DNA of 48,142 bases from Clostridiales bacterium. GTDB taxonomy: Bacteria; Bacillota; Clostridia; Oscillospirales; CAG-272. The notes below the pieces were generated by a model. The model was not told the DNA's origin. It did no database searches and worked only from the letters and a program-made list of their open reading frames with translations. The stretch spans positions 1 to 48,142 of the forward strand of contig JAAYQM010000095.1 in the NCBI GenBank assembly GCA_012519315.1, given 5' to 3'. Shown one piece after another: positions 5,816 to 46,763 of the stretch (positions are counted from its first letter, which is position 1; every line of letters begins with the position of its first letter). The position numbers were made by a program, and so were the translations under genes.

Positions 5816-5862
5816 TCACCGCTCAAGATACTCTATCCCTGTATCTTGAGCGGTGATTTTTT
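5816..5862. terminator. Strong bidirectional terminator
   Basis: A perfect 15-bp stem pairs 5816-5830 with 5842-5856 across an 11-base loop. TTTTTT follows on the plus strand and an A run precedes it. It serves both the 5508 transcript and the convergent spoIIR gene. Confidence 0.85.
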
Positions 5863-5872
5863 CTTACGTTTA

Positions 5873-6520
5873 TTAATCTGTCTTGTCCTGCTTTTTCTGT
5901 TTCGGACTGAAAAGCTGCTCAAATACCTCAACGATCTTAAACTTCAGTCTATACTTCGGATTCTCGCTCTCGGTGATAATCTTATACTGCTCGGGGGTAA
6001 AACCGGCAGATATAAACTTCTTTTCTGCCCCTTCATCCCTTTCCGGCTCGTCAAGAGCGGCGGAGAGGCAGAGAGGCGGAAAGAGAACGCACCACCAGTT
6101 TTTCCCTGCTCCATCGCCGATTATAACCTTTAAGGAGGTGTATTTCCCTGCAGGAAGAGCGAACCCGTCATAAGACCGCTGCGGATAATATTCTCTGCAA
6201 AGCTCCGCGGTCACCTCATAGAAATATCCCTCTGAAGCAACTACCTCAGACGCCGCCTTGATTATATCCGAGATTCGGCTCTCAACCGACGCTCTGGCAT
6301 CCTCATAATCGTCATAGCCGCTGAATGCCGTTCCAAACCGGCGCAAAACCTCGTCCCTAACTAGCAATTTCAGCGCCTGATCCTCTTCACTGTCTGAATT
6401 TGCTATAACATGCAGCCTGATAACGTCATCATAAACCTTTCCTTCCCCCTCAAGCGGTATAAAGCCGATAAGGGAAATTGCAATAAGTATGCAAATCGTA
6501 AAATTTAAAATATAACGCAT
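5873..6520 (-). CDS. spoIIR: Stage II sporulation protein R (SpoIIR)
   Basis: The 215-residue protein has an N-terminal hydrophobic signal or anchor (residues 5-21). The family signature IRLHVIANSDSEEDQALKL follows at about residues 34-52, then VRDEVL. SpoIIR is made in the forespore under sigma-F, exported into the intermembrane space, and triggers SpoIIGA to process pro-sigma-E in the mother cell. AAGGGG lies 8 bases before the ATG. No convincing sigma-F promoter was found in the upstream 150 bp. The terminator at 5816-5862 lies just downstream. Length and signature fit the family well; the C-terminal tail is Lys-rich. Confidence 0.9.
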   Translation of the reverse strand: MRYILNFTICILIAISLIGFIPLEGEGKVYDDVIRLHVIANSDSEEDQALKLLVRDEVLRRFGTAFSGYDDYEDARASVESRISDIIKAASEVVASEGYFYEVTAELCREYYPQRSYDGFALPAGKYTSLKVIIGDGAGKNWWCVLFPPLCLSAALDEPERDEGAEKKFISAGFTPEQYKIITESENPKYRLKFKIVEVFEQLFSPKQKKQDKTD

Positions 6521-6659
6521 ATTTATAACCCCTTAAAATTCATTCCCTCGCCAAAATATCGGTCAAGTTAATGTACTTTAATTATTAACAGGGTTTTATC
6601 CTATTATTCATAAAAAAATTATAATTGTAAAATTTTTACTTTTTCTGCAAACAAATAAA

Positions 6660-6690
6660 CAAAGCCCCCGAAAAAAAATCGAGGACTTTG
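6660..6690 (-). terminator. Hairpin terminator downstream of obgE
   Basis: On the minus strand CAAAGTCCTCGA pairs with TCGGGGGCTTTG using two G-U pairs, around a T-rich loop and followed by TTTATTTGTTT. It ends the der-obgE transcript. Confidence 0.6.
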
Positions 6691-6695
6691 ATGCT

Positions 6696-7970
6696 TTATT
6701 TCATGAACTCAAATTCAAAATCATAAATGCTGACGGTATCACCGTCCTTGACACCGTGCTCAACCAGAAGATCGATCACTCCGCTCCTTTGAAGCACACG
6801 CTGGAAAAAGCTCAGGGATTCCCAGTCATCTAAATTAACCTGACCCATAAGATTGTAGAGCCAATCTCCCTTTACAACATATACGCCGTCCACCAGCTGA
6901 ATTTCAGTCTCACGGGCAGAGGGTATTGCTTGTTCCTCCGGCTCGATTTCAGGCTCATAAATTTTCAGAGGAGGAAGGAGACGGAGCCGGTCACCAACCA
7001 AACGAACCAGACGATCAAGACCGTCTCCCGTTGCCGCCGAAACATAAACCAGTTCCCACTCATTCTCATCAACAAAGCGTTCAAATGCCTTTATATCCAC
7101 CTCAGAGCTCTCAAGCATATCCGACTTATTCGCCACAATAATCTGAGGGCGCTGCGCCAACTCCTCGCTGTAATTTTTCAGTTCGGCATTGATTTTAATG
7201 ATGTCCTCTACAGGATCTCTTCCCTCGGTACCCGCAATGTCAACAACGTGCAACAGAAGGCGGCAACGCTCGATATGCCGCAAAAAATCATGCCCAAGCC
7301 CCGCTCCCTCAGCGGCTCCTTCAATAAGCCCGGGAATATCGGCAGCAACAAATCCGCTTCCCTCCCCGATTCTGACAACGCCGAGATTCGGAGAAAGGGT
7401 GGTAAAATGATAGTCGGCAATCTTAGGACGCGCGGCACTGATTCGAGCAAGGATAGACGATTTTCCCACATTGGGAAAGCCGATAAGCCCGACATCGGCA
7501 AGCATCTTTAGCTCAAGCAGAAGATGCCTTTCCTCCCCTTTGCGCCCGCTTTTTGCAAATCGGGGGGTCTGCCTTGTGGCGGTTGCAAAGCGGCGGTTTC
7601 CCCAGCCCCCTTTTCCCCCTCGGCAGATCACAAAAGGATCGCAATCGGACATATCCTTGATAATCCTGCCCGTCTCGGCATCACGAATAAGCGTTCCGGA
7701 CGGCACCTTTATCACAAGATCCTCACCTGATTTTCCGTGAAATTTTGCCGGCTTGCCCGGCTCGCCGTTCATAGCGATAAACTTACGCTTATACCGAAAG
7801 GCAAGGAGGGTATTAGTCCCCTCATCAATCATAAAAATCACGTCGCCGCCCTTGCCGCCGTCCCCGCCGTCAGGACCACCGGCCGGCACATACTTCTCGC
7901 GACGAAAGGAGACCGCACCTGCGCCGCCGTCTCCCGCCTTTACATATATTTTCACATTATCGACAAACAT
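6696..7970 (-). CDS. obgE: GTPase ObgE/CgtA
   Basis: The 424-residue protein has the three Obg domains in order. A glycine-rich Obg fold (1-158) holds AGDGGAGAVSFRREK and GGPDGGDGGKGG. The G domain has P-loop GFPNVGKS (164-171), DIPG (211-214) and NKSD (281-284). A C-terminal OCT domain spans about 350-424. Obg binds the 50S subunit during late assembly and links GTP/ppGpp levels to growth and, in Bacillus, to sporulation and stress signalling. AGGAG precedes the ATG. In many Firmicutes obg follows rplU-rpmA; here it follows der, which is unusual but functionally coherent. Confidence 0.96.
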   Translation of the reverse strand: MFVDNVKIYVKAGDGGAGAVSFRREKYVPAGGPDGGDGGKGGDVIFMIDEGTNTLLAFRYKRKFIAMNGEPGKPAKFHGKSGEDLVIKVPSGTLIRDAETGRIIKDMSDCDPFVICRGGKGGWGNRRFATATRQTPRFAKSGRKGEERHLLLELKMLADVGLIGFPNVGKSSILARISAARPKIADYHFTTLSPNLGVVRIGEGSGFVAADIPGLIEGAAEGAGLGHDFLRHIERCRLLLHVVDIAGTEGRDPVEDIIKINAELKNYSEELAQRPQIIVANKSDMLESSEVDIKAFERFVDENEWELVYVSAATGDGLDRLVRLVGDRLRLLPPLKIYEPEIEPEEQAIPSARETEIQLVDGVYVVKGDWLYNLMGQVNLDDWESLSFFQRVLQRSGVIDLLVEHGVKDGDTVSIYDFEFEFMK

Positions 7971-8069
7971 ATTGTCTCCTAATTGTTTATTTTAAATATA
8001 TACTTCCAAAAATATCACCAAACGATACCAAAGACAACCCATCCTCAATGTCTCACTCGCGGTGTATCG

Positions 8070-15597: not shown

Positions 15598-17136
15598 TCA
15601 GGTCTCCTGCCGATATTTTACATAAACCGCCAAACTTTTGTCATCACCAAGCTCTATTCTTTCAATCATCGAAAACAGTAGCAGTCGATTTTTATCCGCC
15701 TCCCCGAAAAACCGTATCGCCTCAAGGATAAGCTCTTCTCTTTCCGCATCCTCCGACCTTGGCGTCCGGGCAGCTATTCGCCGCTGAAGCTCCTCCCTCT
15801 CTTTGCGTATGCCGTCATACATTCTTGAAAAATCCTCCTGTTCCAGGAGCCCGCTAGCTCTGTCCTCATACAAGGCGTCCAATTTTTTTGACAATACCGA
15901 CAATCGCTGAGAAAGAGCCTGTGTTTTTTCTCTCTCCTTAGCTTTAGGACGATTTGCGGCTGCGGCGGCAAGGGTCGCAGGATCAACAGCCCTTCGCACA
16001 TCAGCAGTCAGCCTTGCTGCCACCTCCGCGCACAAGCGATCGGCTCTTGCGCTGTGACTGGTGCACCCCTTCACCCCCGACAAACGCCTATAATTGCGGC
16101 AAAAAAAATAGAGCGCCTCCCCCGACACAAGCTTTCTCGCCGTCACGCCCAGCTTGTGACCGCACTCCCGGCAGTAAAACAATCCCCGAAGCAGATAGTC
16201 ATGCCGGCGATGCCGGGTGCCTGCCCGTGCCGAAAGCAGCTCGCCGACACGACGAAAATCCTCCTCTTCAATAATCGGCTCGTGAGTTCCTTCTGCAACT
16301 GCCCATTGTTCGGGAGGCAACCGCACCACCATTTTCGACTTATAGCTCAATTTCTTCACCCGGCCCTGCACCATATTGCCGATATAAACCTGATTTTTGA
16401 GCATATGAGAAATTTTCTCCCCGCTCCACAGTCCTGAAAAGCGCCCCTCCCTTTTGATTTTCAGCGCCGCGTATTCCGCAGGGGTCGGTATCCCCTCGGC
16501 ATTCAGTACACCGGCAATCTCACGACAAGAGCGACCGGCAAGAGCCATAGCAAAAATTCGCCTCACAACAGCGGCGGCTTCATCATCGATGATAATTTTG
16601 TTTTTCTCGTCGGGGGATAATTTGTAGCCGTAATAAGCCTTCCCCCCTATAAAAAGTCCCTGCTTTTGCTTATATCTCTTGACACTGCGTATTTTTCTTG
16701 AGGTATCCTTTGCATACATATCATTCATAATGGCTCGAAATGGGGATATATCGTTTGCGCTGCTTTCCGAGGCGGTGTCCACACCGTCAAGCAATGCCAG
16801 ATAACGAACTCCATGCTCGGGAAAGTACCGCTCCATATAATATCCGGTCTGAATATAGTCCCGCCCTAGCCTTGACATATCCTTTGTGATGACCATATTC
16901 ACCTTTTTTTCCTCGATATCGGCGATCATGCGGCAAAATCCGGGACGGTCAAAAGTGGTTCCGCTCACTCCATCGTCTATGTAGAAATCGTAAACCGGTA
17001 TGCAATTTATTGACGCAAATTCGAGTAGCAGCTTTCGCTGATTGGCTATGCTTTCTGACTCGGACTCCCCCTCATCCTCCTTGGAAAGCCGGATATAAAG
17101 GGCAGCCGTGTAGCCTTCCGGATCGATATTTTTCAT
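15598..17136 (-). CDS. Large serine recombinase (site-specific integrase/transposon type)
   Basis: The 512-residue protein has a resolvase catalytic domain at the N-terminus, with YIRLSKEDEGESES carrying the nucleophilic Ser (S18). The arginine-rich SRLGRDYIQTGYY motif and the recombinase domain (KAYYGYKLSPDEKN onward, GIPTP) follow. Next comes a zinc ribbon (CRECGHKLGV, then CRNY and GCTSH), and a coiled coil (about 375-450) of the type that controls directionality. MKNIDPEGYTA at 17136 follows AAGGGGG; the frame could start at 17160. No cargo genes adjoin it and the flanking genes are housekeeping, so it is either a minimal element or a domesticated recombinase. A small ORF lies directly upstream. 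Confidence 0.88.
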   Translation of the reverse strand: MKNIDPEGYTAALYIRLSKEDEGESESESIANQRKLLLEFASINCIPVYDFYIDDGVSGTTFDRPGFCRMIADIEEKKVNMVITKDMSRLGRDYIQTGYYMERYFPEHGVRYLALLDGVDTASESSANDISPFRAIMNDMYAKDTSRKIRSVKRYKQKQGLFIGGKAYYGYKLSPDEKNKIIIDDEAAAVVRRIFAMALAGRSCREIAGVLNAEGIPTPAEYAALKIKREGRFSGLWSGEKISHMLKNQVYIGNMVQGRVKKLSYKSKMVVRLPPEQWAVAEGTHEPIIEEEDFRRVGELLSARAGTRHRRHDYLLRGLFYCRECGHKLGVTARKLVSGEALYFFCRNYRRLSGVKGCTSHSARADRLCAEVAARLTADVRRAVDPATLAAAAANRPKAKEREKTQALSQRLSVLSKKLDALYEDRASGLLEQEDFSRMYDGIRKEREELQRRIAARTPRSEDAEREELILEAIRFFGEADKNRLLLFSMIERIELGDDKSLAVYVKYRQET

Positions 17137-17159
17137 AATGCACCCCCTTACGATAGGCA

Positions 17160-17384
17160 CTAATCCTCACAATCTTCCGCTTCTCTGCTCTTCAGATAAA
17201 TTAAGAAGGACTCGGTGACAATTTTGGCAAGAGCGGGACCTTCGTTGCAATAGATAATCTTGATGCTATTACAGGGATCCGCCGCCGTCAACCGTTTTCT
17301 ACGTTCCTGTTTCGCCGTATCTGTTTCCCCTTTCGCAATTACCCGATTATCGGCAACATTTTTATCTGTCGTATCCACAAGCAT
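17160..17384 (-). CDS. Small charged protein upstream of the recombinase, 74 aa
   Basis: The frame ends 23 bp before the recombinase start. The product has a polar N-terminus with a basic patch (KQERRKRL, about 26-33) and a C-terminal amphipathic part, NSIKIIYCNEGPALAKIV followed by TESFLIYLKSR. Small proteins in this position in serine-recombinase elements are often TnpW-like or directionality factors. The similarity here is only in layout, so function is inferred. GGGGG lies very close to the ATG, a poor ribosome binding site. A possible promoter (GGGACA, 18 bp, TATAAT) lies near 17510-17540 on the minus strand. Confidence 0.5.
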   Translation of the reverse strand: MLVDTTDKNVADNRVIAKGETDTAKQERRKRLTAADPCNSIKIIYCNEGPALAKIVTESFLIYLKSREAEDCED

Positions 17385-20515: not shown

Positions 20516-22942
20516 CTATATAAACAGCATTGTAACGACAAAGGCAGGCAGCAGCCAGAATATCTGATAGAGTGCGATATATACAGAGGGCAGAGCGATG
20601 CTGTCCGGGCTGAATGCCATCAAGAAGGCCATGAGCAAAAGACTGACCATAAATGCAGAAACCTTAACAAAATTGTTTGTCCTAATGGCGCTGTATAGCT
20701 TTTCACACAGCACCATAACATTGAGCAACGACTTTGTAGAGGCGCGGGAAACAACACCGCTGTCAAGGCTATCCTCAACAACGCCAAGCTTATCCTTCAA
20801 ATTGCATTTTGCGATTTTAACGGGATATTTCGATATTCTTATTGCGCTGGACAAGAGCATATCGTCAATATTCGGATCAAAGGTTTTAATAACGGCGCAC
20901 AGTCCGTTCTTGTAAAGCTGCTTTATGACAGACTCAAAATCAGCGTCCATTGTATATTGAATATAAAGCTTTGCCGATAGAACATCGCCCTGAGCCACAT
21001 ACATAATGCTAACATTACTGCTTTCAAAATCATCAAAATCCGCCATATCCTCGGGCACAAAAATATCATATGCCCCGATAAAATCGGCCTTCCCGACAAG
21101 CACCCGCCTGCCGTCAACCAAAGCCTCGATCCCTCGATCCTCCGCTTTGGTGATCTCTACCGAATCCGATTGTCCCAGCTCAAGGGTTGCCAGGTGAAAG
21201 ACGTCGGAAAGAGGACCGCCAACACTGGAAAACAGACTGGAAAGATCATATAACAGGGTATCTATACGATTGTTGCCGTAAACCTTAACTCTTTTAACCT
21301 TCACGCCGTAGGACGGAAAAATATCCTTATCCTCGAAAACCACTGCCGACGCGCCAGCATATTCTGCGGGAGCTCCGTTGCCGATAATGGCGCCGTCATT
21401 ATCAAAGGCCTTACGCGAGGCTCTATAAAGGGGATGAGCGTTCGCGATAAAGATAACCGCAGGCATACAGAAAAGAAAGGCGGTATTGGCTCTTGTTAAG
21501 GAAAGCACCAAATCACGGCTCTCGGCAAAGGAGATAATGAACAGAACAAGCATTATCATGATAACAAGGGGGATCATCAGGGTATTGAACAATCCCTCCT
21601 CCGGAACACAAGAGCGCTTGAAAAAATTGTTGACAAAATTAGTTTTTTTAACGCGCAGGATACCTGGCTGTACCTCAGGGATACTGTCGTAGAGGGCAAC
21701 CACCTCAGATACCGCATCCTCCGGCTCTAGATGGCTCATAGCATACTTTGTACGGTTAGAGGAAACAATATTAAAGCTGTAGATATCCCGCTTGAGATTC
21801 ATATATTCAAACAATAATACAAGGCAGATCGAAATAGCGGCCGGCAGACTATATAATCTAACTTTTTCATCGGCATAGCCGCAAACGAGAAAGCTGTACA
21901 GCACCTGAACAAAGGAAACGGCAAAGGCGGCACTTTCCGGTGTGGGACGCAGGCGGAACAATGCCTTCGCTCCAGAAAAAATGCTGCGATAGGCAAGGGC
22001 GGCGCAAAGTACAAAGAGCTGAAGTCCGACCATCACATATATAAGAGGATTTTCTGCCGGTAAGAGGGCAGACGCAAGACTAATACCGAGGATTCCCGCA
22101 TTTTCAAACACAAAGATTATCGCTGTCAGAACAATTGCCAAAGCAAGGCGAAGCTTGACCCCTGAATAGCGGCGTCTGAAGCTGGCCATAACTTCCTTTG
22201 CCTGGGAACGATCGGTAAATTCAAATCCGGAAGTATCGCATACGGTACACTCGCTATCCAGCTTTTTCTGAATCTCGGTAATTTTATCGATTCCCACCGT
22301 TTCAGCAAGCTCGTCCTCAAGACCGAAGGCAAGCATCAGATTAATATCGCTGGCATCAAGCTCTGTTTTGTCAAAGGACCTAGTCTCAAATGCCGAAGGA
22401 TCAGGCATCTCAGGCATCTCATGCACATTGGCGTCGGCATAATCAGGCTGTGTCTCTGTGACAGGCATATCATCTTCATCCGAGGAATAGGCAAAAGTTT
22501 CGCTTTCCGCTGTTTCGCCTGGCACATAGCGTCTGAAACGATATTTCATCGGTCGCCTTTTTGCTGTCTCAGCCTCGACACCGGAAATCAAAAACTCGGT
22601 CGTCATAGCCTCGTCCTGCTCGATGTGTTCATCAGGTTCTTCAGACGGCAAAGACTCCCCTGCAGCGTTCTCTTCCTCCTCAAAATCCTGAGTTTTGACC
22701 GGATGGATTTTTTCTATCGTTTCAATCTCGTCTCCGTCATCATTTTTCAGATATTTTTTTATCAAAAATTCAATAGAGGTCTCGTTATCCTCGGGCACCT
22801 TTTTTATGTCCCCGTACACTGCGGACAACTCGTTCATACGTTCCTCTTCTGATTTGTTTGCAACATCCGCCTTCAGCCTTTGCAGCAATTCATCAATCGA
22901 TAAATCTGCGTCACCTGAGCCGGTTTTCTTGTTTTTTCTCAT
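20516..22942 (-). CDS. Membrane protein related to P-type ATPases but lacking the catalytic motifs, 808 aa
   Basis: About 260 acidic, low-complexity N-terminal residues precede paired membrane segments at about 265-285, 300-320, 338-357, 367-384, 455-473 and 486-501, with two more at 760-780 and 788-808. After the sixth, the order resembles the P1B-ATPase cytoplasmic loop: AIIGNGAPAEYAGASAVVF, then EDKDIFPS where DKTGTLT is expected; VDGRRVLVGKADFI like the N-domain end; and LYIQYTMDADFESVIKQLYK then IKTFDP where TGD is expected. GDGxNDxP is absent, and so is the CPC transport motif. It therefore looks like a pseudo-ATPase that cannot form the phosphoenzyme. The ATG at 22942 follows AAGGAG by 10 bases. 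Function is unknown; a regulatory or scaffold role is inference. Confidence 0.7.
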   Translation of the reverse strand: MRKNKKTGSGDADLSIDELLQRLKADVANKSEEERMNELSAVYGDIKKVPEDNETSIEFLIKKYLKNDDGDEIETIEKIHPVKTQDFEEEENAAGESLPSEEPDEHIEQDEAMTTEFLISGVEAETAKRRPMKYRFRRYVPGETAESETFAYSSDEDDMPVTETQPDYADANVHEMPEMPDPSAFETRSFDKTELDASDINLMLAFGLEDELAETVGIDKITEIQKKLDSECTVCDTSGFEFTDRSQAKEVMASFRRRYSGVKLRLALAIVLTAIIFVFENAGILGISLASALLPAENPLIYVMVGLQLFVLCAALAYRSIFSGAKALFRLRPTPESAAFAVSFVQVLYSFLVCGYADEKVRLYSLPAAISICLVLLFEYMNLKRDIYSFNIVSSNRTKYAMSHLEPEDAVSEVVALYDSIPEVQPGILRVKKTNFVNNFFKRSCVPEEGLFNTLMIPLVIMIMLVLFIISFAESRDLVLSLTRANTAFLFCMPAVIFIANAHPLYRASRKAFDNDGAIIGNGAPAEYAGASAVVFEDKDIFPSYGVKVKRVKVYGNNRIDTLLYDLSSLFSSVGGPLSDVFHLATLELGQSDSVEITKAEDRGIEALVDGRRVLVGKADFIGAYDIFVPEDMADFDDFESSNVSIMYVAQGDVLSAKLYIQYTMDADFESVIKQLYKNGLCAVIKTFDPNIDDMLLSSAIRISKYPVKIAKCNLKDKLGVVEDSLDSGVVSRASTKSLLNVMVLCEKLYSAIRTNNFVKVSAFMVSLLLMAFLMAFSPDSIALPSVYIALYQIFWLLPAFVVTMLFI

Positions 22943-23036
22943 AAGCCGCAAACTCCTTGTCAGTTTATTGGATTATCCCGTTCCCGAACCGGAACGCAAA
23001 ATATATAGCTATATAAAAATGCTCATTTCAAAGCTG

Positions 23037-24119
23037 TTATTTGCTCTTCTGTTTAAAGCCGGCAACATCTCCCGAATGTCGCTGTCTTGCGGCCTCGCTC
23101 AATAAAACAGCCGCTGCCACCGAGACATTGAGGGAATTAACCTTGCCATACATGGGAATGGATACGATAAAATCACTTTTATCTTTAATGAGCCTGGAGA
23201 CACCGGTCCCCTCGCTGCCAAGAACCAGCGCCATGGGAAGATTAAAATCGGCATTATAATACTCATTCCCCCCCACCTCGGCAGCAAAAATCCAAAGTCC
23301 CCTTTTCTTTAGCTCTTCAATCGTCGCGGCAATATTGGTCACCTTGGCAACAGCCAGATGCTCAAGAGCGCCGGCCGATGCCTTTGCCACCGTAGGCGTC
23401 AATCCGCAGGCACGCCTTTTCGGTATAATTATGCCATGGGCGCCGGCACACTCGGCAGAACGGATCAGTGCTCCGAGATTATGCGGATCCTCGATTTTAT
23501 CAGCAATTACTATAAGAGGATGCTCTCCACCTTCCTCGGCAAGCCGAAAAACATCATCAATTGTCGAATAGGAGCGTTCTGCCGCCATGGCCACAACTCC
23601 CTGATGATTTACACCGCCCGAATAGGTATCCAGCCTGCCCCGTTCAACCTCTATAACAGGGATCCCCCGACCTCGCGCTTCGGCGATTAACGCAACAATC
23701 GACCCCTCACGGGCACCTTTGAGCACAAAAAGCTTGTCAATATCCCGTCCGCTAACCAAAAGCTCCTTTACGGCATTCCTACCTGCAACCGCCGAGGTTG
23801 TTCCTATATCATCCCTGTGCTCGGAAAAGTCTTGATAAAAGATCGGCTCTTCACTCTCAGTCGTTTTCGGCTTTATTAAAGTTTCGTCGTAAAAATTTCC
23901 TGAATCGGAAAGCTTATCCGATGGAAAGATATTTTTCGGTCGGCTCCCCCGCTCCTTGCGGGGTCTGTAAGCTTTATCGGAATCAATCTTATGAATATCG
24001 GTGCGTTTATCGCCCCTTGCAGTTGTCCTGTGCATCTTTAGTTTACTGTCTCTATTCTCTTTCGGTCTACCCTTTTCGACAAAACCGGGACCCTTTTTCT
24101 TGTAATTGTTCGACGGCAT
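23037..24119 (-). CDS. rlmB: 23S rRNA (guanosine-2'-O-)-methyltransferase RlmB / TrmH-family protein
   Basis: The C-terminal two thirds are a SpoU/TrmH methyltransferase. AGRNAVKELLVSGRDIDKLF begins the substrate-binding L30e-like domain. The knotted SAM-binding core has IADKIEDPHNLGALIRSAE, VLGSEGTGVS and IPMYGKVNSLNVSVAAAVLL, the three SpoU motifs. The N-terminal 110 residues are basic, Lys/Arg-rich and probably disordered, longer than in the Bacillus enzyme. Start 24119 (MPSNNYKKKG) is preferred over a GTG at 24176, but neither has a clear ribosome binding site. In Bacillus rlmB lies near sigH; here a SigH-like gene lies 0.9 kb upstream. The chemistry is secure; G2251 specificity is inferred. 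Confidence 0.88.
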   Translation of the reverse strand: MPSNNYKKKGPGFVEKGRPKENRDSKLKMHRTTARGDKRTDIHKIDSDKAYRPRKERGSRPKNIFPSDKLSDSGNFYDETLIKPKTTESEEPIFYQDFSEHRDDIGTTSAVAGRNAVKELLVSGRDIDKLFVLKGAREGSIVALIAEARGRGIPVIEVERGRLDTYSGGVNHQGVVAMAAERSYSTIDDVFRLAEEGGEHPLIVIADKIEDPHNLGALIRSAECAGAHGIIIPKRRACGLTPTVAKASAGALEHLAVAKVTNIAATIEELKKRGLWIFAAEVGGNEYYNADFNLPMALVLGSEGTGVSRLIKDKSDFIVSIPMYGKVNSLNVSVAAAVLLSEAARQRHSGDVAGFKQKSK

Positions 24120-24580
24120 ATATTGCTTACGATTGTTGCCAGGTATTGCAATGAAGCAGCTCCCGGCAAGAATCACCCTTTCGCATAAGCTGTTGAATTT
24201 TTTGTTGAGGTTATATATAAGTATTTTATCCCAAAAGCTGTCTCATACCCATTTATGCAATCTTCATAACCGAAACAAATTCATCCTTGCAAAATTCACT
24301 ACAAAACGATAAAATGCTACGCTTATCCAAGATATTATAACACACAAAAACCGATTTGTACATACATAAAACTAAATAATTTGCCGATTTTACCGCACTC
24401 TGTCCAGAACAGGCAGGCAAATACACATTTTTATTGATGTAATTATCCAAATTGTATAATATATCCTCTCTTTTATGTGTAAGCCTGAGCGATAAGGCTC
24501 AAATTGACGCATAAAAGCACATGTTGCGGCAATAATACCGCAACATGTGCTTTTTATCGATTAAACGATATTGCTATTAC
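24120..24580. other. Intergenic region upstream of rlmB
   Basis: Besides the terminator at 24513-24554, there is an AGCCT/AGGCT repeat (about 24482-24498) and a TATAAT on the plus strand near 24455 without a matching -35. I see no gene in it. Confidence 0.4.
24513..24554. terminator. Strong bidirectional terminator after the zinc-ribbon gene
   Basis: A perfect 17-bp stem, AAAAGCACATGTTGCGG (24513-24529) with CCGCAACATGTGCTTTT (24538-24554), has A/T runs on both sides. Confidence 0.85.
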
Positions 24581-24853
24581 CTAAACTTTTTTGGCCGCAT
24601 AGCATTCGCTGCAAAAGACCGGTCTGTCATTAGAGGGCTGGAAAGGAACTTTAGCTTCCTGACCGCACTCTGCACATATAGTTGTAAACAGCTCTCTCTG
24701 AGCTTTCCCAGAGTTTTTGCGGGCGTCACGGCAGGGCTTGCATCTTTGAGGCTCGTTCTGAAATCCTCTTTCAGCATAAAACTCCTGCTCACCTGCTGTG
24801 AAAACAAACTCTGAACCACAGTCTTTGCAAATTAAATTTTTGTCCTGATACAT
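24581..24853 (-). CDS. Zinc-ribbon domain protein, 90 aa
   Basis: The protein begins MYQDKNLICKDCGSEFVFT, with AGEQEFYAERGF and CKPCRDARK, matching the probable zinc-binding domain proteins of Firmicutes. A second Cys pair follows, CAECGQEAKVPF with CSECYAAKK, so four CxxC pairs could bind two zinc ions. There is no membrane segment. The start at 24853 follows GCGAGGT by 7 bases; the frame extends to 24910 without family similarity. It sits between the SigH-like gene and rlmB. The role is unknown; nucleic acid or protein binding is likely for such ribbons. Confidence 0.85.
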   Translation of the reverse strand: MYQDKNLICKDCGSEFVFTAGEQEFYAERGFQNEPQRCKPCRDARKNSGKAQRELFTTICAECGQEAKVPFQPSNDRPVFCSECYAAKKV

Positions 24854-25036
24854 TTTTTTTACCTCGCTTAAAAATATGGATATAATAATTTTGCCCTCGA
24901 CGGATTTCAACCGACACCTTTGCCAAACAACGCTCTTAGATTAAGCTATACGGGCATATATAAATGGATCCTGAATTATATATTGTTAAAGAAGATAAAA
25001 ATAGAAGGGTTTGATCTATTATATAACAAAATCCAA

Positions 25037-25663
25037 TTAACACAATAGTTTTTTCAGCTTTACTCTAATACGGCAAATGGCATTGTCGATGGACTTATGC
25101 GATTTTCCAAGCGAGGCAGCAATATCCTTTGCAGAATGACCGCCCATATAAAGGGCGAAAACCTTGTTCTCAAAGTCTGAAAGATTCTCATGAATCAAAC
25201 ACTTAAGCAGGCGAAAACTCTCCTTATCAATGATTAAATCAGAGGGGTCGCTTTGCTCGTCAAAAAGATAATCGGCGCTGACTCCAAGCTCACGCAATTC
25301 TTCCAATGAATATAAGTAATGCTGTTTAAGCCGTCCGGACTTCCGCATCCGGGAGATAATGTAATTGCTGATGCACACTTTAGCATACAGACCAAAGCTA
25401 ACTTTATTTTGTGTCAGATCATAGGCAATTGCGGCGTGATAAAGGGCAAGAGTCGCTTCCTGAAGCATGTCTTCATATTCGCCGGCATCCTGCTTTCCAC
25501 ACAGACGCAAAACCGTGTTGCTAAGCAAAGGGAAATAACGTTCTGACAACTCTGCAAAAGCGGTCTGGCTTGTATTATTATCTTCTTTAACAAGAGCCAG
25601 CAACTCTTGCAGTGATAAATCTTTCATTGTCATACCGTTTTTAATTGTATTATGTTTTAACAA
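25037..25663 (-). CDS. sigH: SigH-like RNA polymerase sigma factor
   Basis: The 208-residue sigma-70 factor has region 2 around YEDMLQEATLALYHAAIAYD and region 4 as ENKVFALYMGGHSAKDIAAS followed by KSHKSIDNAICRIRVKLKK. The latter closely follows the end of Bacillus SigH. SigH starts the transition to sporulation. Nearby rlmB supports the assignment because rlmB and sigH are neighbours in Bacillus. The chosen TTG start at 25663 follows ATAGGTG; ATG codons at 25633 and 25627 lack good ribosome binding sites. A strong sigma-A promoter lies at 25785-25812. An alternative is another sigma-30/ECF-like factor, so the symbol is less certain than the class. Confidence 0.75.
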   Translation of the reverse strand: MLKHNTIKNGMTMKDLSLQELLALVKEDNNTSQTAFAELSERYFPLLSNTVLRLCGKQDAGEYEDMLQEATLALYHAAIAYDLTQNKVSFGLYAKVCISNYIISRMRKSGRLKQHYLYSLEELRELGVSADYLFDEQSDPSDLIIDKESFRLLKCLIHENLSDFENKVFALYMGGHSAKDIAASLGKSHKSIDNAICRIRVKLKKLLC

Positions 25664-29100: not shown

Positions 29101-30021
29101 ATGAAAAACTTCGAAGAATACAACCGAACCGATCTTGCGTGTGAAAAAATCATTCCAAAGGCTGAGGACGGTGAGGAAAGCGGCGTTATTTATTCCGAAT
29201 CGGAAGAGAGCGGCGTGCTGATCAGCCGGCTGGAGGTAATCTCCGAAAAGGGTCAGGAGGCAATCGGGAAGCCGATGGGAAAATATATCACCCTCTTTTG
29301 CGGCAACATCTGGCAATTTGAGGAGGATCAGTTTGAGGGTGTCGCCACCGTCATTGCCGACGAAATCCGCCGTCTTACCGATGAAATACTGGGCAGGGAA
29401 ACTAAAGAGGACTGCACCCTTCTGGTGGTCGGGCTCGGCAATCAATATATTACCGCCGATGCAATCGGTCCGCAGACGGTCAAACAAATTACCGTAACTC
29501 GTCATATCCGGGAGATGGACTCCGAGCTTTTCAGCAAGATGAATTGCTGCGCCATATCTGCCATCACTCCGGGCGTGCTCGGTCAGACCGGCATCGAGGC
29601 AGTCGAGCTTATTCGCGGCGCCGCAAAGGATGTCTCACCTGATCTTGTCATTGTTGTTGATGCGCTGGCGGCCCGCTCCTGCGAACGTCTGGCATCAACC
29701 ATTCAGCTCAGCGACACCGGCATCAACCCCGGTTCAGGCATCGGAAACATGAGAAAGACAATCAACAGTGAAACAATCGGCTTTCCGGTAGTCGCACTGG
29801 GGGTTCCAACCGTTGTCGATTCCTCAACCCTTGTTTATGATGCTCTGCAAAAAGCGGGAATCGAGAATATCAGCGACGAACTAAAAACAGTTTTGAACAA
29901 CGGCCGGGGCTTTTATGTCTCACCAAAGGAAAGCGATATAATTACCAAGGAGATTGCAAAGCTTCTGTCCACTGCCATTAATCGCGCTTTTTATGCCGAA
30001 TTTTCCAGCATGACGGGTTAA
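29101..30021 (+). CDS. gpr: GPR endopeptidase (germination protease)
   Basis: The 306-residue protein matches the spore protease that degrades small acid-soluble DNA-binding proteins during germination. NRTDLACE near residue 8 corresponds to the RTDLAVE auto-processing site of the zymogen. VVGLGNQYITADAIGPQTV, ITPGVLGQTGIEA, VVDALAARS and STIQLSDTGINPGSGIGN form the conserved catalytic core, and LGVPTVVD follows. It should be made in the forespore. AAAGGGG lies 7 bases before the ATG. spoIIP follows on the same strand after about 160 bp, the same pair order as in Bacillus. Confidence 0.95.
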   Translation: MKNFEEYNRTDLACEKIIPKAEDGEESGVIYSESEESGVLISRLEVISEKGQEAIGKPMGKYITLFCGNIWQFEEDQFEGVATVIADEIRRLTDEILGRETKEDCTLLVVGLGNQYITADAIGPQTVKQITVTRHIREMDSELFSKMNCCAISAITPGVLGQTGIEAVELIRGAAKDVSPDLVIVVDALAARSCERLASTIQLSDTGINPGSGIGNMRKTINSETIGFPVVALGVPTVVDSSTLVYDALQKAGIENISDELKTVLNNGRGFYVSPKESDIITKEIAKLLSTAINRAFYAEFSSMTG

Positions 30022-30184
30022 ATCGTTATATTTGACTTCAAATAACCCCAAAAAAAGCGACCCCCCTGCTTTTACGACGGGAATTCGCTGTCACCTGTTT
30101 CTCCTCTCATTTAGCCGAATCTATCATAATAATATGATGCCATTAATATATTATGGTATAAGGTTAAATGAAAGGAGAGATAAA

Positions 30185-31504
30185 ATGCAAGATACTTATT
30201 CAAAAATGCTTATAACAACCAGCAGTTCCATTCCAAATTTTGAGGATAGATTTGACGACTTCGTTATTAAAAAGCGCAGGCGGGCAAAGGGCATCAACAC
30301 GGATATCCTGCGCAGGCGCCTGTCCGCTCTTGCTACCTGCCTTTGCGTAACACTTGCGTTGTCATCATTGCTGTTTACAGGAATCGACGCCGCCGATAAG
30401 ATGCTGTTCAAGGGCGGCGTAATGGAATTTATCATCACCGATGTCTTTGGCATGGAAAGTGAATACGGAGCCTCAAATTTTACCGAGCTGATGATGGAGC
30501 AAAGCTTTTGGGGAAATATAAACAAATCCTTTGCCGACAAGAATGTCAACACAAGCAAAAAATATCCCTTACCCGCATTTAGCAGACTGCATCTCCCTAT
30601 AGAGGAGGGGGTAAAGCCGGTGATTGCCACCCCCAAAGATCCTGAGCCTGACGAAACCAAATACACGCTTGAACAGCTCTACGCATTTGATCCTTCTAAG
30701 GTTCCAAGCGGTCACCTGCCTATTATCCCAAGGGACATGTCCCATGAATACGACGGAAAACTAAAGCTCAGCAATGAGACAAAATACACGCCGAACCTTG
30801 CGGCTATTGCCGAAAGCAACAACACCGTCCCCGCCTTTCTTCCGACGAAAGGGGCAAGCAACGAACCCTTGATTTTAATCATTCATACCCACGGGACAGA
30901 GTCCTTTTCGGAGGAAGGAAGCGTCTCATACAGCAACGACTACAATATCCCCCGCTCCTCTGATATAACTAAAAATGTTGTTGCTGTAGGCGCCGCAATG
31001 GCAAATGTTTTTGAGGAGGCCGGAATCCCTACACTACACTGCAAAATCATGCACGATCTTGAGTCTTACAAGGATTCATACAATCGGGCAGCCGCAACCA
31101 TAAAGAGTTACCTTGCCGAGTATCCTTCCATTAAATATATATTTGACGTTCACAGAGACTCTATACTGCAGGCCGACCAAAGCAAAATCCGTCCGGTCAC
31201 TTTAATCAACGATCTTCCCACCGCTCAGATTATGTTTGTTGTCGGAACCGATTACTTCGGAGCAAATCACCCAAACTGGATGCAAAATCTGACCTTTGCC
31301 GTGCGGATACAAAGCACACTCAATGCCAACTATCCGGGCTTTGCCCGTTCGATCTATCTTCGCGGCGCCGCCTTCAACGAGCAGTACACCCCCGGCTCCC
31401 TCCTGCTTGAAGTCGGTTCCTGCGGAAATACCCTTTCCGAAGCCTTGCGCGCAGGGGAAACCCTCGCCCAAACCCTTACCGCCATCATCAAAAGCGGGTG
31501 GTAA
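30185..31504 (+). CDS. spoIIP: Stage II sporulation protein P (SpoIIP)
   Basis: The 439-residue protein has a basic cytoplasmic N-terminus (KKRRRAKG), a membrane segment at about 50-70 and an extracytoplasmic catalytic domain. That domain contains LILIIHTHGTESFSEEGS, FDVHRDSI and LLEVGSCGNT, the SpoIIP signature with its metal- or catalysis-linked His and Glu residues. SpoIIP is a peptidoglycan amidase/endopeptidase that works with SpoIID and SpoIIM during engulfment. AAAGGAGAGATAAA places the start at ATG 30185; the frame extends to 30032 without family similarity. It follows gpr, as expected. Confidence 0.93.
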   Translation: MQDTYSKMLITTSSSIPNFEDRFDDFVIKKRRRAKGINTDILRRRLSALATCLCVTLALSSLLFTGIDAADKMLFKGGVMEFIITDVFGMESEYGASNFTELMMEQSFWGNINKSFADKNVNTSKKYPLPAFSRLHLPIEEGVKPVIATPKDPEPDETKYTLEQLYAFDPSKVPSGHLPIIPRDMSHEYDGKLKLSNETKYTPNLAAIAESNNTVPAFLPTKGASNEPLILIIHTHGTESFSEEGSVSYSNDYNIPRSSDITKNVVAVGAAMANVFEEAGIPTLHCKIMHDLESYKDSYNRAAATIKSYLAEYPSIKYIFDVHRDSILQADQSKIRPVTLINDLPTAQIMFVVGTDYFGANHPNWMQNLTFAVRIQSTLNANYPGFARSIYLRGAAFNEQYTPGSLLLEVGSCGNTLSEALRAGETLAQTLTAIIKSGW

Positions 31505-40931: not shown

Positions 40932-43900
40932 TCAGAAAAAGGAGAGTTGATCGGTCTCGGAAAGGAAGTCGATAACCCCGTTTCTCTTCAGCACCTCGAT
41001 AACCGTTTTTGTAACCTGAGCGCGCTGGCGCAAGTCCTCTACAGAGGAAAACTCTCCCTCCACCCGCGCGGTGCCGATCCTAAGGGCGGCAGTATCCCCA
41101 AGACCGGGCAGGCAATTTAAAGGCATCCGTATTTTCCCGTTTTCGGGCAGGAAATGATAGGGATGAGACTTATAAAGATCCACCGGAAGAAACTCGATGC
41201 CGCGGGCAAGACATTCATTTGCAAGCTGCAGAGCGGCCAGCATTTCCGTTTCCTTCGGGGTAGCATCCTTACCCTTTTCCTCTATAGCCGTAATGAGGGA
41301 AAAAATGTGGGAGCGTCCGCGCATGACGATCTCTCCGTCAAATCCGCCCGGCGCCACCGAGAAAAACGCAGCATAGAACTCCAGCGGGTAATACACCTTA
41401 TACCAGCCGAGACGCAAGGCGGACATAACATAGGCAGCGGCATGGGCCTTTGGGAACATATACTTTATTTTTTTACAGGATTCGATATACCACTCGGGCA
41501 CATCGTTTGCCAACATAGCCTCCTCATATTCAGGACGGAACCCTCGCCCTTTGCGAACATCCTCCATTATGCTAAAGGCCATGCTCTTGTCAAGTCCCTT
41601 ATAAATCAGGTAAACCATGATATTGTCACGTGTTCCCACAACATCGGAAATTGTGCATATATCATTTTTGATCAGATCCTGCGCATTCCCGACCCAAACA
41701 TCGGTACCGTGGGATAGACCGGAAATCTGCAAAAGATCGGAAAAACACTTCGGCTTTGTTTCAAGCAACATTTGACGGACAAACTTAGTCCCGAACTCAG
41801 GCATACCAAAGGTTCCCGTTTCGCTGTTGATCATTTTCGGGGAGACCCCAAGCGCCTCGGTTGAGGCAAAGAGGCTGAGCACCTTCTTGTCATTCAAGGG
41901 AATTGACAACGGGTCTACACCCGAATATTGCTGCATCATCTTATATTTAGTAGGTACATCATGCCCCAGAATATCCAGCTTCAAAATAGTGTCATGCAAA
42001 TATTCAAAAGGGAAATGAGTGGTGATAACTCCCGATTTCACATCATCGGCGGGATACTGGACAGGCGTAAAGTCATAAACCTCATATTCACGGGGGATAA
42101 CAATAATGCCTCCGGGATGCTGACTCGTTGTCCGCTTAACGCCGATACACTTGCCTATAAGATAATCAACCTGAGCACGGCTAAGGGAAATTTCCCGTTT
42201 TTCAAGATATTTGGCGACAAAGCCAAAAGCTGTTTTTGACGCCAAGGTTCCCAGCGTCCCCGCGCGGAACACATTCTCCTCGCCAAAAAGCACCTCGGTA
42301 TATTTGTGTGCCTCCGCCTGCACATCACCCGAAAAATTGAGGTCGATATCGGGGGATTTGTCGCCATAGAAGCCAAGAAAGGTTTCAAAGGGAATATCGT
42401 GCCCGTCTCCGTCCATGGGTATTTTGCAATTCGGACAGTCCTTTTCAGGCAGGTCAAAGCCGGATCCTACCGATCCATCATCGATGAATTGGGAATAATG
42501 GCATCTCGGACAAAGATAGTGTGGGGGCAGCGGATTCACCTCGGTAATCCCCGCCATGGTGGCCACAAAGGAGGATCCTACCGACCCGCGGGAACCTACA
42601 AGATAGCCCCGCTCCTCGCTGTTTTTAACCAGCTTACGTGCGATCATGTACAAAACGGCGAACCCATGCTTGATGATTGCTTCAAGCTCACGGGTCAGTC
42701 TTGTTTCAACCTGAGGCGGGAGGTTCTCACCGTATTTTTCATGTGCGGTCTGCCAGCAGATCCGCTGAAGATCCTCTTCCGCACCCTCCATTTTCGGGGT
42801 ATACTGTCCCTCCGGAATGGGGCGCACATCTTCTATCATATCGGAGATAAGGTTGGTGTTCTTCACCACCACCTCATAGGCGGTCTCCTCTCCGAGATAG
42901 GAAAACTCGGCGAGCATCTCCTCGGTAGTGCGAAAATAAAGGTTAATGTCTCTGTCGGCATCGTTATATTTCATCCCGTCAAGCAATATTTTCCGGGCGA
43001 TTTCGTCCTCTTTGTTAAGAAAATGCGCATCACAGGTAGCCACAACCGGACGATTCGCCTTGCGTCCGATCTCGACAATTTTACGGTTAAGATTGCGCAG
43101 CCCCTCCTCATCGGCGACCTTTCCGTTTTCTATCAAAAAACGATTGTTTGAAATAGGCTGTATTTCAAGATAGTCATAATATTTCGCAATCTTCAACAGA
43201 TCGGACTCGCTGCGTCCGTCAAGCACGGCGGAAAACAGCTCCCCCGCCTCACAGGCAGAACCGATAATCAGCCCCTCCCGATGTTCGTTCAAAACTGTTT
43301 TCGGAACGCGGGGATTGCGCCTGTAATACTTAAGATAGCTCATTGAAACCAGTTTGTACAGGTTTTTTAGTCCCTGCCTGTTTTTCACAAGAATAATCTG
43401 ATGATATGGTCTGATTTTCAGCGGATCCGCTTTTTCGCTCATGGCATCGAGCATAGAGTCGGTATCTGCGATTCCCTCGGCACGCAGCTTTTCCACCATG
43501 CAGTAAAAAATCTTTGCAAGCATCTCGGCATCATCGCTTGCCCGGTGATGATTAAAGGAGCCAAGATTAAAATAATCGGCAAGGACATTAAGCTTATGAC
43601 TACTCAGCTCAGGATTTACATAACGGGACAAGGCCACCGTATCAAGATAGGCATTAGCGAAGGGCAGACCACATTGCTCGGCGGCATAGCGAATAAAGCC
43701 GGTGTCAAAGGCGGCATTATGAGCCACTAGCACCCGGTCACCGATAAAATCAAAAAACTCGGGCAGCACTTCGCAAATCCTCGGAGCATCGGCCACCATC
43801 TCATCGGTGATACCGGTCAGCCTTGTAATTTCTTGTGGAATCGGCACACCCGGATTAACATATGTATTGTAGATATCTGTAACCTCTCCCCCCTTCACCT

Positions 43901-45317
43901 TAACAGCCCCAATCTCGGTGATATGGTTGTTTAATGGGGAAAGCCCGGTTGTTTCTATATCAAAAATGACGAATTCATCATCAAAGGACGTATTAGTCTC
44001 ACCATAGAGGGCACGGGCGGTATCATCGACAAAATAAGCCTCCATGCCATAGATGATCTTCACACCGCTTCCTTTTGCGGCAAGCATCAGCTCAGGAAAA
44101 GCCTGCACATTTCCGTGATCGGTCACGGCAATGGCTGAATGTCCGAAGCGGCTCGCCGTCTCTACAAGCTCTTTCGGTCGGATAAGGGCATCCATCGACG
44201 AGAGGCAGGTATGCAGATGCAGCTCCACTCTTTTTTCGGGAGCGTTATCCTGCCGCTCCAGCTTTTTTATTTTGGCAATGGCGCTTGGCGCGATAATCGT
44301 CTCCCCGTCAAATTTGTCTGTGCGCACCCGCCCCTTCACCGCAAGAGGAACTCCCGGTTTCACCTGATTAAGCCAGCCCGTCTCTCCCTTCTTCAAGGAC
44401 ACACGCACATAAACGGCAACATCCCGGTCGGTAATCGATATGGTGATATGCTGCTTGTCCCCCCGTCTTGTTTCCTTTTTGACAACCTCAACAACCTCCC
44501 CAAGCACCGTCACCCCCGTCCCCGGCACAAGCACGCGGATCGGTGTCGGCTCCCCAATATCAATCCCTTCGCCGTAAATCACGCAAGGAGAGTCGATGTC
44601 AAAGCGCATGAACCCGACAGCATAAGTCGTCTCCCCGATTTTTTCGGCAACATCGGAGCAATCGGGGTGCAGAGAGGCTACCCGTGCAAAATTTTGATTT
44701 TCCTCAAAGGGAGCTGTCTCCCGCTGAGATTTTGCTAAAGAGGTGGCAGTAATCTCCGCAATGCTGCGGTCAAGGGCGGCAATCTGCCGCTCCTGCTCCA
44801 GCCGGCGCGCCTCCTCATATTGAGCCAAATTTTTTGACTTAGTGATTTGAACGGTAAAGTCAAGAGAAAATTCACTTTTTATAATATTAGAGATTATCTC
44901 GTTGGTTTTTGCCCCGTTCAAAAGATAAATCCCCCCATCGACAAAGGGGAGCTCAATGACAATCGTATCCTCCTGCAACTCAAATTTAGAATCATCGAAG
45001 AATCCCTTCGACACAGTGCCGATACGTTCGGTCTCCGTAAGTATCTCGGGCATATAATCAAGGGAGAAAAGCTCGGAAGGGTATTTCGGCAGAATCCGCA
45101 CCAGACTAAGTCCATGCGCCAATGCGGTCTCCCCCTCAATAGCATATAAAACGCTTTTTCTGACAAGAGATGGCAGCCTTAGAATAACCTCGACAATGCG
45201 GTTTTCCCGATCAAAGCGTGTTTTTTCCACCTTGCTTTTTTCCAGTATTCTTGAATAGATATTTGATGGTTGATACTTTGTAAATATCTGCAAAAAGGTC
45301 TTTTGCGGTTTTCCCAT
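40932..45317 (-). CDS. polC: DNA polymerase III PolC-type alpha subunit
   Basis: This 1461-residue Gram-positive replicase has N-terminal domains (1-230), an OB fold (about 240-350) and a PHP domain with VELHLHTCLSSMDALIRP (364-381). A DEDD 3'-5' exonuclease is inserted in the PHP domain (VIFDIETTGLSPLNNHITE, D453/E455; HNAAFDTGFI; HHRASDDAEML). The polymerase core follows: a zinc ribbon CPRCHYSQF...CPNCKIPMDG, then GDKSPDIDLNFSGD with catalytic Asp residues and HPGGIIV. It performs proofreading chromosomal replication. Length and domain order match full PolC. AAAGGAAC precedes ATG 45317. Confidence 0.97.
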   Translation of the reverse strand: MGKPQKTFLQIFTKYQPSNIYSRILEKSKVEKTRFDRENRIVEVILRLPSLVRKSVLYAIEGETALAHGLSLVRILPKYPSELFSLDYMPEILTETERIGTVSKGFFDDSKFELQEDTIVIELPFVDGGIYLLNGAKTNEIISNIIKSEFSLDFTVQITKSKNLAQYEEARRLEQERQIAALDRSIAEITATSLAKSQRETAPFEENQNFARVASLHPDCSDVAEKIGETTYAVGFMRFDIDSPCVIYGEGIDIGEPTPIRVLVPGTGVTVLGEVVEVVKKETRRGDKQHITISITDRDVAVYVRVSLKKGETGWLNQVKPGVPLAVKGRVRTDKFDGETIIAPSAIAKIKKLERQDNAPEKRVELHLHTCLSSMDALIRPKELVETASRFGHSAIAVTDHGNVQAFPELMLAAKGSGVKIIYGMEAYFVDDTARALYGETNTSFDDEFVIFDIETTGLSPLNNHITEIGAVKVKGGEVTDIYNTYVNPGVPIPQEITRLTGITDEMVADAPRICEVLPEFFDFIGDRVLVAHNAAFDTGFIRYAAEQCGLPFANAYLDTVALSRYVNPELSSHKLNVLADYFNLGSFNHHRASDDAEMLAKIFYCMVEKLRAEGIADTDSMLDAMSEKADPLKIRPYHQIILVKNRQGLKNLYKLVSMSYLKYYRRNPRVPKTVLNEHREGLIIGSACEAGELFSAVLDGRSESDLLKIAKYYDYLEIQPISNNRFLIENGKVADEEGLRNLNRKIVEIGRKANRPVVATCDAHFLNKEDEIARKILLDGMKYNDADRDINLYFRTTEEMLAEFSYLGEETAYEVVVKNTNLISDMIEDVRPIPEGQYTPKMEGAEEDLQRICWQTAHEKYGENLPPQVETRLTRELEAIIKHGFAVLYMIARKLVKNSEERGYLVGSRGSVGSSFVATMAGITEVNPLPPHYLCPRCHYSQFIDDGSVGSGFDLPEKDCPNCKIPMDGDGHDIPFETFLGFYGDKSPDIDLNFSGDVQAEAHKYTEVLFGEENVFRAGTLGTLASKTAFGFVAKYLEKREISLSRAQVDYLIGKCIGVKRTTSQHPGGIIVIPREYEVYDFTPVQYPADDVKSGVITTHFPFEYLHDTILKLDILGHDVPTKYKMMQQYSGVDPLSIPLNDKKVLSLFASTEALGVSPKMINSETGTFGMPEFGTKFVRQMLLETKPKCFSDLLQISGLSHGTDVWVGNAQDLIKNDICTISDVVGTRDNIMVYLIYKGLDKSMAFSIMEDVRKGRGFRPEYEEAMLANDVPEWYIESCKKIKYMFPKAHAAAYVMSALRLGWYKVYYPLEFYAAFFSVAPGGFDGEIVMRGRSHIFSLITAIEEKGKDATPKETEMLAALQLANECLARGIEFLPVDLYKSHPYHFLPENGKIRMPLNCLPGLGDTAALRIGTARVEGEFSSVEDLRQRAQVTKTVIEVLKRNGVIDFLSETDQLSFF

Positions 45318-45494: not shown

Positions 45495-46763
45495 TTATCC
45501 GGAAATATTCATAACCGTTCCCAGAAAAACGGGCAATCCGGTTGCGTTGTCAACAATGGCATAGACAAAGGGGCGGTCAAGGCGCACAATTTTTGTCTCA
45601 ACATAGGCTTCATCCACTATCTCCACCTTAGTCACAGCTCCGGCCTTCGTCCCCAGCTCGTCAACCGAGATAAAGGTTTTATGCAAAACCTTCCCGATAA
45701 AAATGTTTCCTCTTGAGGATTCCCCCAGCCGTGAAAAATCAGCAGTACTACCGTAAAAAGCATCGGGCATGCCAAGCTCCTTCAGCGCATCATTCATTTT
45801 AACGGAATAATCATAGCTGAATTTTGGCAGATAAGCGCTGACAAGGGTTGAGGTTGCGCCCTTAATTGTAGCGGCAAAGCTTTCTCCCGTCAGGGATGCG
45901 ATATAATCGTCAATCGGGACATCCTCGTCAGGCAGGAGAGCCACAAAGCTGTAATGCCCGTCGGCATAGGGTTTGATAAAGCCGATAGCGCGCCCGTCCT
46001 CAAGGTATTTGTTTTCCTCAGAGAACATAAACTCAGCCGTCTGCTCCTCACCCGATATTGAAGTAAACTTTCCGCTGGCGATATTGGCTTTGTTATAAAC
46101 AGTCTCCCAGCGGGCGTCAAAGACCACCGCGTTAATGAGATACATCACCGCATCCTCGGAAATACTGTCGAGAATTTTATCGATCATTCCGTCAGTTTTA
46201 TCCTTAACCCAGTTGTTGATGTCATCAAGGGTTGCCTTGTCCTCAAAGGGAGCCTTATATGCCGCAGCATTGTAATAGTTGGCATTCCGCTGCAAAAAAT
46301 CGGGTTTTGCGGTAAATCTGCCCTCATCATCACGGAACCAAATGGAATTGGCAACACCAAGCTTTGACTTTTCGGTGCTTTTTAGGCTGTTTATATAGGT
46401 ATAAAGATACTCATTCAGCTCATCAATGGAAATACCGTCGCCAAGCACCGCTTCCATCTGTTCGAGGGTGTTCCCGTCAGCGCCGTTTGCCGTCATGGCA
46501 AGGGCGAGAAACACCGACAGGGGGGACACGAGGCTGTTTTCCTCGTCATCAATCGTCTTTTTGAAAAGATTGAAGTAAAAGTCAGACACCGCCGACAAGA
46601 ACTTGTCATCCGACGTTTTCCCCTCCACCTCTTCCGCCTTTATCCCCTTCATAAGGTCGGTAGCACTGATATCAAGGGAAAGCATGGAGCAGGAGACGGC
46701 ATTAAACACAACCGTCGCAAAGAGAATAAGACAACCAATACTCAGCATCACTTTTCGTTTCAT
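45495..46763 (-). CDS. Serpin-family protease inhibitor, predicted lipoprotein
   Basis: A signal peptide ends in FNAVSC (Cys25), suggesting attachment to the outer face of the membrane. The rest is a full-length serpin fold: SPLSVFLALAMTANGADGNT, VANSIWFRDD, LINAVVFDARWET, FIGKVLHKTFISVDE and RPFVYAIVDNATGLPVFLG are canonical serpin segments. The hinge is GTKAGAVT (371-378), where inhibitory serpins have GTEAAAAT. Counting Gly371 as P15 puts P1-P1' at Glu385-Ala386. Small hinge residues suggest an inhibitor rather than a non-inhibitory serpin. It begins 30 bp after the anti-sigma-like gene and is probably co-transcribed with the ECF sigma factor. Serpins are rare in bacteria but known in gut Clostridia. 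Confidence 0.92.
   Translation of the reverse strand: MKRKVMLSIGCLILFATVVFNAVSCSMLSLDISATDLMKGIKAEEVEGKTSDDKFLSAVSDFYFNLFKKTIDDEENSLVSPLSVFLALAMTANGADGNTLEQMEAVLGDGISIDELNEYLYTYINSLKSTEKSKLGVANSIWFRDDEGRFTAKPDFLQRNANYYNAAAYKAPFEDKATLDDINNWVKDKTDGMIDKILDSISEDAVMYLINAVVFDARWETVYNKANIASGKFTSISGEEQTAEFMFSEENKYLEDGRAIGFIKPYADGHYSFVALLPDEDVPIDDYIASLTGESFAATIKGATSTLVSAYLPKFSYDYSVKMNDALKELGMPDAFYGSTADFSRLGESSRGNIFIGKVLHKTFISVDELGTKAGAVTKVEIVDEAYVETKIVRLDRPFVYAIVDNATGLPVFLGTVMNISG

Follow-up and report, generated by a model that had tools for sequence, protein, structure and literature searches.

The gene at positions 20516–22942 of the window, which is the whole stretch of 48,142 nucleotides analysed here, almost certainly encodes a dead derivative of a P1B-type ATPase. 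The best explanation overall, to which we assign a probability of roughly 0.6, is that a pump of the CopA type died a single time and has since been retained in another function, namely as a membrane scaffold or adaptor. The features of this gene, hereafter the pseudo-pump gene, and of its upstream neighbour are given below; the AAGGAG ahead of the ATG identifies 22942 as the correct start.

20516–22942, minus strand: pseudo-P1B-ATPase gene, 808 codons plus stop, ATG at 22942, stop codon at 20518–20516 (sequence, profiles, model, alignment)
22953–22958, minus strand: Shine-Dalgarno sequence AAGGAG, 5' of the ATG at 22942 (sequence)
22871–22900, minus strand: short N-terminal motif SIDELLQRLK, residues 15–24, a predicted helix opening the disordered region (model)
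22367–22744, minus strand: acidic linker, residues 67–192, predicted to be disordered with pLDDT below 50 (model)
21398–22210, minus strand: six N-terminal membrane helices MA, MB and M1–M4, M2 and M3 being separated by the actuator remnant (model and alignment)
21593–21763, minus strand: actuator domain remnant of 57 residues, TGE and its surroundings deleted (alignment)
21458–21469, minus strand: CPC equivalent, in which proline P494 alone is retained (alignment)
20738–21397, minus strand: pseudo P/N region, i.e. HAD plus nucleotide-binding domain (profile, model, Foldseek, alignment)
21314–21334, minus strand: DKTGT site, reading E-D538-K-D-I-F-P (motif count, alignment)
21212–21220, minus strand: Ser-Glu-His-Pro ATP-binding motif, reading Gly-Gly-Pro (alignment)
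20873–20884, minus strand: TGD site, T687-F-D689-P690 (alignment)
20764–20765, minus strand: junction of the ~32-residue deletion that removes GDGxND (alignment)
20522–20737, minus strand: M5 and M6, with the Cu ligands Tyr-Asn and Met-Ser replaced and a new conserved Q and W796 (model and alignment)
23037–24176, minus strand: rlmB, encoding the 23S rRNA G2251 2'-O-methyltransferase, upstream neighbour (profile matches, locus comparison)

The pseudo-pump descends from P1B copper pumps

The initial annotation had called the 808-residue protein a homologue of P1B-ATPases, and several independent comparisons bear this out. Searched as a single sequence, the protein matches NCBIfam model TIGR01525 (heavy-metal P-type ATPase) over residues 454–690 with E=3e-8, and a Pfam search of the same protein gave no significant match. 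A family profile built on an alignment of 51 relatives returned P1B ATPases from the PDB, among them LpCopA (3rfu, E=4e-34) and further pumps for Cu and Zn. The AlphaFold model, which has a mean pLDDT of 80 overall and exceeds 90 across most of the core, resembles CopA folds: among PDB structures, Foldseek ranks CopA 4bbj (E=4.5e-16), 3rfu, ATP7B and other P1B pumps highest. The global TM-scores of these matches are ~0.4, a value to be expected of a multidomain protein whose domains have shifted and which is disordered over much of its length.

When 78 family members were aligned jointly with 12 true CopA-type pumps, no gap interrupted the window protein between M3 and the far side of the phosphorylation site, and only minor indels occurred from there to the TGD site. 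Model and alignment together give eight membrane helices, MA and MB among them, and all parts of the P-type fold are found, that is a membrane core, an actuator reduced to about half its size, and a HAD P-domain with an inserted N-domain. Membership of an unrelated membrane family is ruled out by profile, fold and the gapless alignment with CopA. The likeness to the CopA-type P1B-1 pump of Legionella (3rfu/4bbj) extends to the fold, the eight-helix MA/MB topology, the position and order of the P and N domains and the alignment from M3 to the phosphorylation site. Unlike CopA, the pseudo-pump has a half-size actuator, is devoid of HMA, TGE, CPC, DKTGT, His-Pro, GDGxND and Cu ligands, and has gained an acidic disordered N-terminus.

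All motifs required for pumping are lost family-wide

The sequence elements quoted in the initial annotation, i.e. GAPAEYAGASAVVF, VLVGKADFI, VIKQLYKNGL, EDKDIFPS and KTFDP, are all found in the translated reading frame, and its judgement that the protein is catalytically dead extends to the whole family, across which DKTGT, GDGxND, TGE, His-Pro and the Cu ligands are lost. None of 60 members keeps DKTGT or GDGxxD; one additional match (L066) was excluded from this count as a true pump. GDGxND, which had been noted as absent, is indeed absent, and more precisely it has been deleted and not mutated, its columns being gapped in 78/78 aligned members. The proposed replacement of TGD by KTFDP is correct as regards the sequence KTFDP, but T and D are not lost (T687-F-D689), and D689 is kept in 99 percent of the family. 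Among the same 78 members, the TGE columns are almost wholly gapped and the actuator has shrunk to ~57 residues, Ser-Glu-His-Pro reads Gly-Gly-Pro with His outside the seven commonest residues at its column, and proline is the sole survivor of CPC.

The transport site fares no better. The M5 Tyr-Asn of pumps is lost, and in M6 Met has become Gln (65 percent) and Ser has become Trp (88 percent). Across the family alignment, the membrane helices contain no conserved Cys, His or Met, and a Pfam search of 51 members gave only two low-complexity matches and no HMA domain. At the same time, other residues have become conserved in the family: D538, Y663 and W796, and also P504 in the membrane part. 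D538, present in 91 percent of relatives, lies at the phosphorylation site or one residue past it, since the profile alignment and the multiple alignment disagree by one residue, and Tyr663 replaces the hinge Asp of active pumps in 99 percent of the family.

Because GDGxND, TGE, DKTGT, His-Pro, the Cu ligands and the metal-binding domain are lost, the protein is unable to pump. Judged by its sequence, it descends from P-type ATPases but lacks the motifs that define them. Pseudoenzymes are well known for kinases and phosphatases, and the pseudo-pump would likewise classify as one, as its catalytic residues are lost family-wide while purifying selection is retained.

The family is confined to one order and strongly constrained

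A direct search detected a homologue in 58/59 genomes of the host's order, the window's genome included; judged by genome content, the order would be one of Oscillospirales-type Clostridia. Matches better than 1e-50 were obtained in 275/295 genomes of the order, and in 220/226 (97 percent) when good-quality genomes are considered. The family was not found outside the order in ~370 genomes of the class: there, the best match is limited to the pump core and reaches 112 bits, a score typical of true pumps, as compared to at least 290 bits inside the order. Small genomes that are 99 percent complete retain the gene, e.g. G580 with 1.2 Mb, which suggests a housekeeping role. A role restricted to sporulation is unlikely, because the gene is kept in nearly all genomes of the order, very small ones included. 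Two closely similar copies of the gene on separate contigs of one genome (L024 and L071, both G011) reflect either a duplication or a strain mixture.

For the dead HAD region, dN/dS values of 0.01–0.15 were calculated by the Nei-Gojobori method from close species pairs of five genera with a synonymous divergence below ~0.8; saturated pairs were computed as well and given little weight. These values are comparable to those of RlmB, and in most pairs they are below or near the value of the membrane part. The loss of every catalytic motif would be compatible with a decaying pump or pseudogene. However, reading frames are intact over 24 families with two exceptions, and low dN/dS coincides with presence in 97 percent of good genomes, so that this reading is refuted and its probability negligible. 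The argument of the initial annotation that an intact frame of 808 codons speaks against decay is upheld, and the changed motifs turn out to be fixed order-wide under strong purifying selection. One family member (L039, 4173–6539) carries a single in-frame TGA and another (L045, 8221–10445) is split into two ORFs, each due to either an assembly error or rare decay.

The pseudo-pump gene is linked to rlmB

In 38/40 inspected loci rlmB lies immediately upstream on the same strand, usually at a distance of -4 to 50 bp. The two genes are adjacent in 102/104 genomes for which both coordinates are available, and the two exceptions have the genes on different contigs. No terminator-like site was detected between rlmB and the pseudo-pump gene on the minus strand, and both genes probably share an operon. 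They are also usually absent together, with 16 genomes lacking both (Fisher p ~1e-21, a value that derives partly from physical linkage and assembly gaps); in one apparent exception (G447) the contig stops ~420 bp past rlmB. Five genomes without pseudo-pump and rlmB are 95–100 percent complete, and five or six in all look complete; therefore the pseudo-pump is not strictly indispensable.

The downstream genes are variable: the window has the TIGR03960/TIGR03936 radical-SAM pair, and other loci have this pair or a gene for an EF-G-like GTPase. The latter is located immediately 3' of the pseudo-pump gene in several families (L055, positions 5862–8021; also L048, L053, L063 and L039). On the other side of rlmB, the window contains a gene for a double treble-clef zinc protein (24581–24910), which is placed between rlmB and a sigma factor gene (25037–25663) whose product is SigH-like and falls under the NCBIfam cut-off (E=5e-21). 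The order sigma factor, zinc protein, rlmB recurs in five further loci (L032, L036, L037, L064 and L067). The RlmB protein of the window (23037–24176) has ~127 extra N-terminal residues before the SpoU core; lengths of ~370–400 amino acids also occur in L047, L061, L065 and L069, some of which are possibly start artefacts of the ORF caller.

Further genes of the window include the germination protease gene gpr and spoIIP on the plus strand (29101–31504), i.e. the host carries sporulation genes. A bacterial serpin, a serine protease inhibitor (45495–46763; Pfam E=2e-88), adjoins the gene for a PolC-type DNA polymerase III alpha subunit (40932–45317). A large serine recombinase (15598–17160) with resolvase, recombinase and zinc-ribbon domains shows weak likeness to cassette-chromosome recombinases and is possibly the remnant of a mobile element.

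A possible origin in an rlmB-copA operon

Outside the order, the gene following rlmB usually encodes an NYN-domain (YacP-like), sigma-factor or ACT-domain protein, as named from the sequences. In one family of another order (f42), a CopA with an HMA domain is encoded 0–13 bp after rlmB in 5/14 genomes, which represent five genera (G075, G109, G136, G163 and G185). DKTG is present in 5/5 of these proteins and GDG in the three full-length ones. The f42 pumps share with the pseudo-pump the genomic slot 3' of rlmB on the same strand and the P1B core, but differ in possessing the metal-binding domain, DKTG and, in the three complete sequences, GDG, which makes them active pumps by sequence. This arrangement suggests that rlmB and copA ancestrally shared an operon and that the pump died afterwards.

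In the phylogenetic tree, the pseudo-pumps form one clade (UFBoot 100) nested within the CopA-type pumps. Their nearest relatives are two CopAs without rlmB linkage (support 97) and not the f42 pumps; the stem of the clade measures 1.5 substitutions per site, and the exact sister group is therefore unreliable. With so long a branch, descent in place can be neither demonstrated nor dismissed from the tree. In the scenario that we propose, a CopA-type (P1B-1) pump would have died once in the ancestor of the order, probably within an rlmB-copA operon, and would have been kept for another job.

The acidic N-terminus carries a loose short motif

The long acidic N-terminus recorded initially proved to be a linker that is predicted to be disordered and is conserved in kind and not in sequence, its net charge commonly ranging from -10 to -130 across relatives. 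Near its start, the pattern S-x-[DE]-[DE]-[IL]-L occurs in 36/77 relatives as compared to 2.4 expected by shuffling; this excess is indicative only, as the pattern was composed after inspection and the set holds some close relatives. The motif is loose, 41/77 relatives failing the regular expression. When 14 genomes were searched with a DNA pattern of the strict motif, no other protein with the motif at its N-terminus was found. A docking signal common to other proteins of these genomes was rejected accordingly, since the pattern returned this family together with unrelated internal or off-frame matches.

What the pseudo-pump may do

We give slightly better than even odds to the role of a static scaffold or adaptor anchored in the membrane, because the moving parts are gone, the cytosolic part is the most constrained and a tethered motif has been added. 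The membrane core would serve as anchor, and the frozen pseudo-HAD/N domain may provide a binding platform (D538, Y663, D689-P-N-I, G617). By means of the S-x-D-[DE]-[IL]-L motif, the long acidic linker could capture a cytosolic partner, which may, speculatively, come from ribosome maturation or translation. Such a partner is proposed because rlmB is directly upstream and an EF-G-like or TIGR03960 radical-SAM gene often follows 3'. Linkage to rlmB suggests a translation-related role; it may also be a relic of the pump era that is uninformative on present function. The more specific idea that the pseudo-pump, as a hallmark of the order, became a central scaffold for ribosome biogenesis or for translation at the membrane, where it would act with RlmB or the ribosome via the acidic tether, is tentative and rather doubtful.

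The strong conservation of D538 and D689 makes a ligand-gated switch the main rival: the pseudo-HAD/N region would bind a nucleotide or phosphate ligand and signal through the membrane core without hydrolysis. Both aspartates rank with the best-conserved positions and are sited at the old active site, the DxD/E resembles HAD motif I, and the ATP pocket retains part of its glycine motif (G604, G617). Such a switch is nevertheless unlikely, given that the strand with GDGxND, which coordinates Mg, is deleted throughout the family, the His-Pro that contacts adenine has become Gly-Gly-Pro and the hinge Asp has become Tyr in 99 percent. It is quite improbable that the old transport core operates as an ATP-independent channel, facilitator or lipid/peptide handler in which the M6 glutamine and W796 form a new path or plug. 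The retained P494 of the broken M4 helix and the newly conserved P504 and W796 in the membrane part would fit this activity, but conserved polar residues inside the membrane are few and the cytosolic HAD region is under stronger selection than the membrane part in most close pairs.

Since several true P-type ATPases are encoded in every tested genome of the order, the pseudo-pump might also act on one such genuine pump by hetero-oligomerisation, as its partner subunit or as a dominant regulator. Linkage of the gene to rlmB and not to pump genes, the differing number of true pumps among genomes and the fact that P1B pumps generally work without a partner subunit render this distinctly improbable. 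A metal sensor or transceptor that uses the old transport site for Cu or Zn would be in line with CopA descent, yet we regard it as highly improbable, as CPC, M5 Tyr-Asn and M6 Met-Ser are lost, the HMA domain is missing and the membrane helices are devoid of conserved Cys, His and Met. Thus, of the functions first envisaged, i.e. regulator, scaffold or sensor, the former two stay tenable, whereas a metal sensor is disfavoured.

Relation to known systems and significance

A P-type body within a larger non-pump protein is present in alveolate guanylyl cyclases, which differ from the P1B-derived pseudo-pump in that their P4-ATPase-like domain belongs to the eukaryotic P4 class and is fused to a cyclase. 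No activity of this domain had been demonstrated by 2017 (PMC5746546), and the title of another report states that P4-ATPase domain activity is required for Plasmodium cGMP synthesis (PMC7858053). A 2023 review of P-type ATPases distinguishes families P1–P6 and anticipates more in prokaryotes (PMC10654040); a text search of this review revealed no inactive family, and we found no report of a bacterial pseudo-P-type ATPase family in the open-access literature.

Taken together, nearly all members of one order of Clostridia from gut and rumen possess the pseudo-pump, which belongs to no Pfam family and is constrained about as strongly as an rRNA methyltransferase. The intact copA in the equivalent slot of another order may allow both the loss of the pump and the gain of its new role to be reconstructed.
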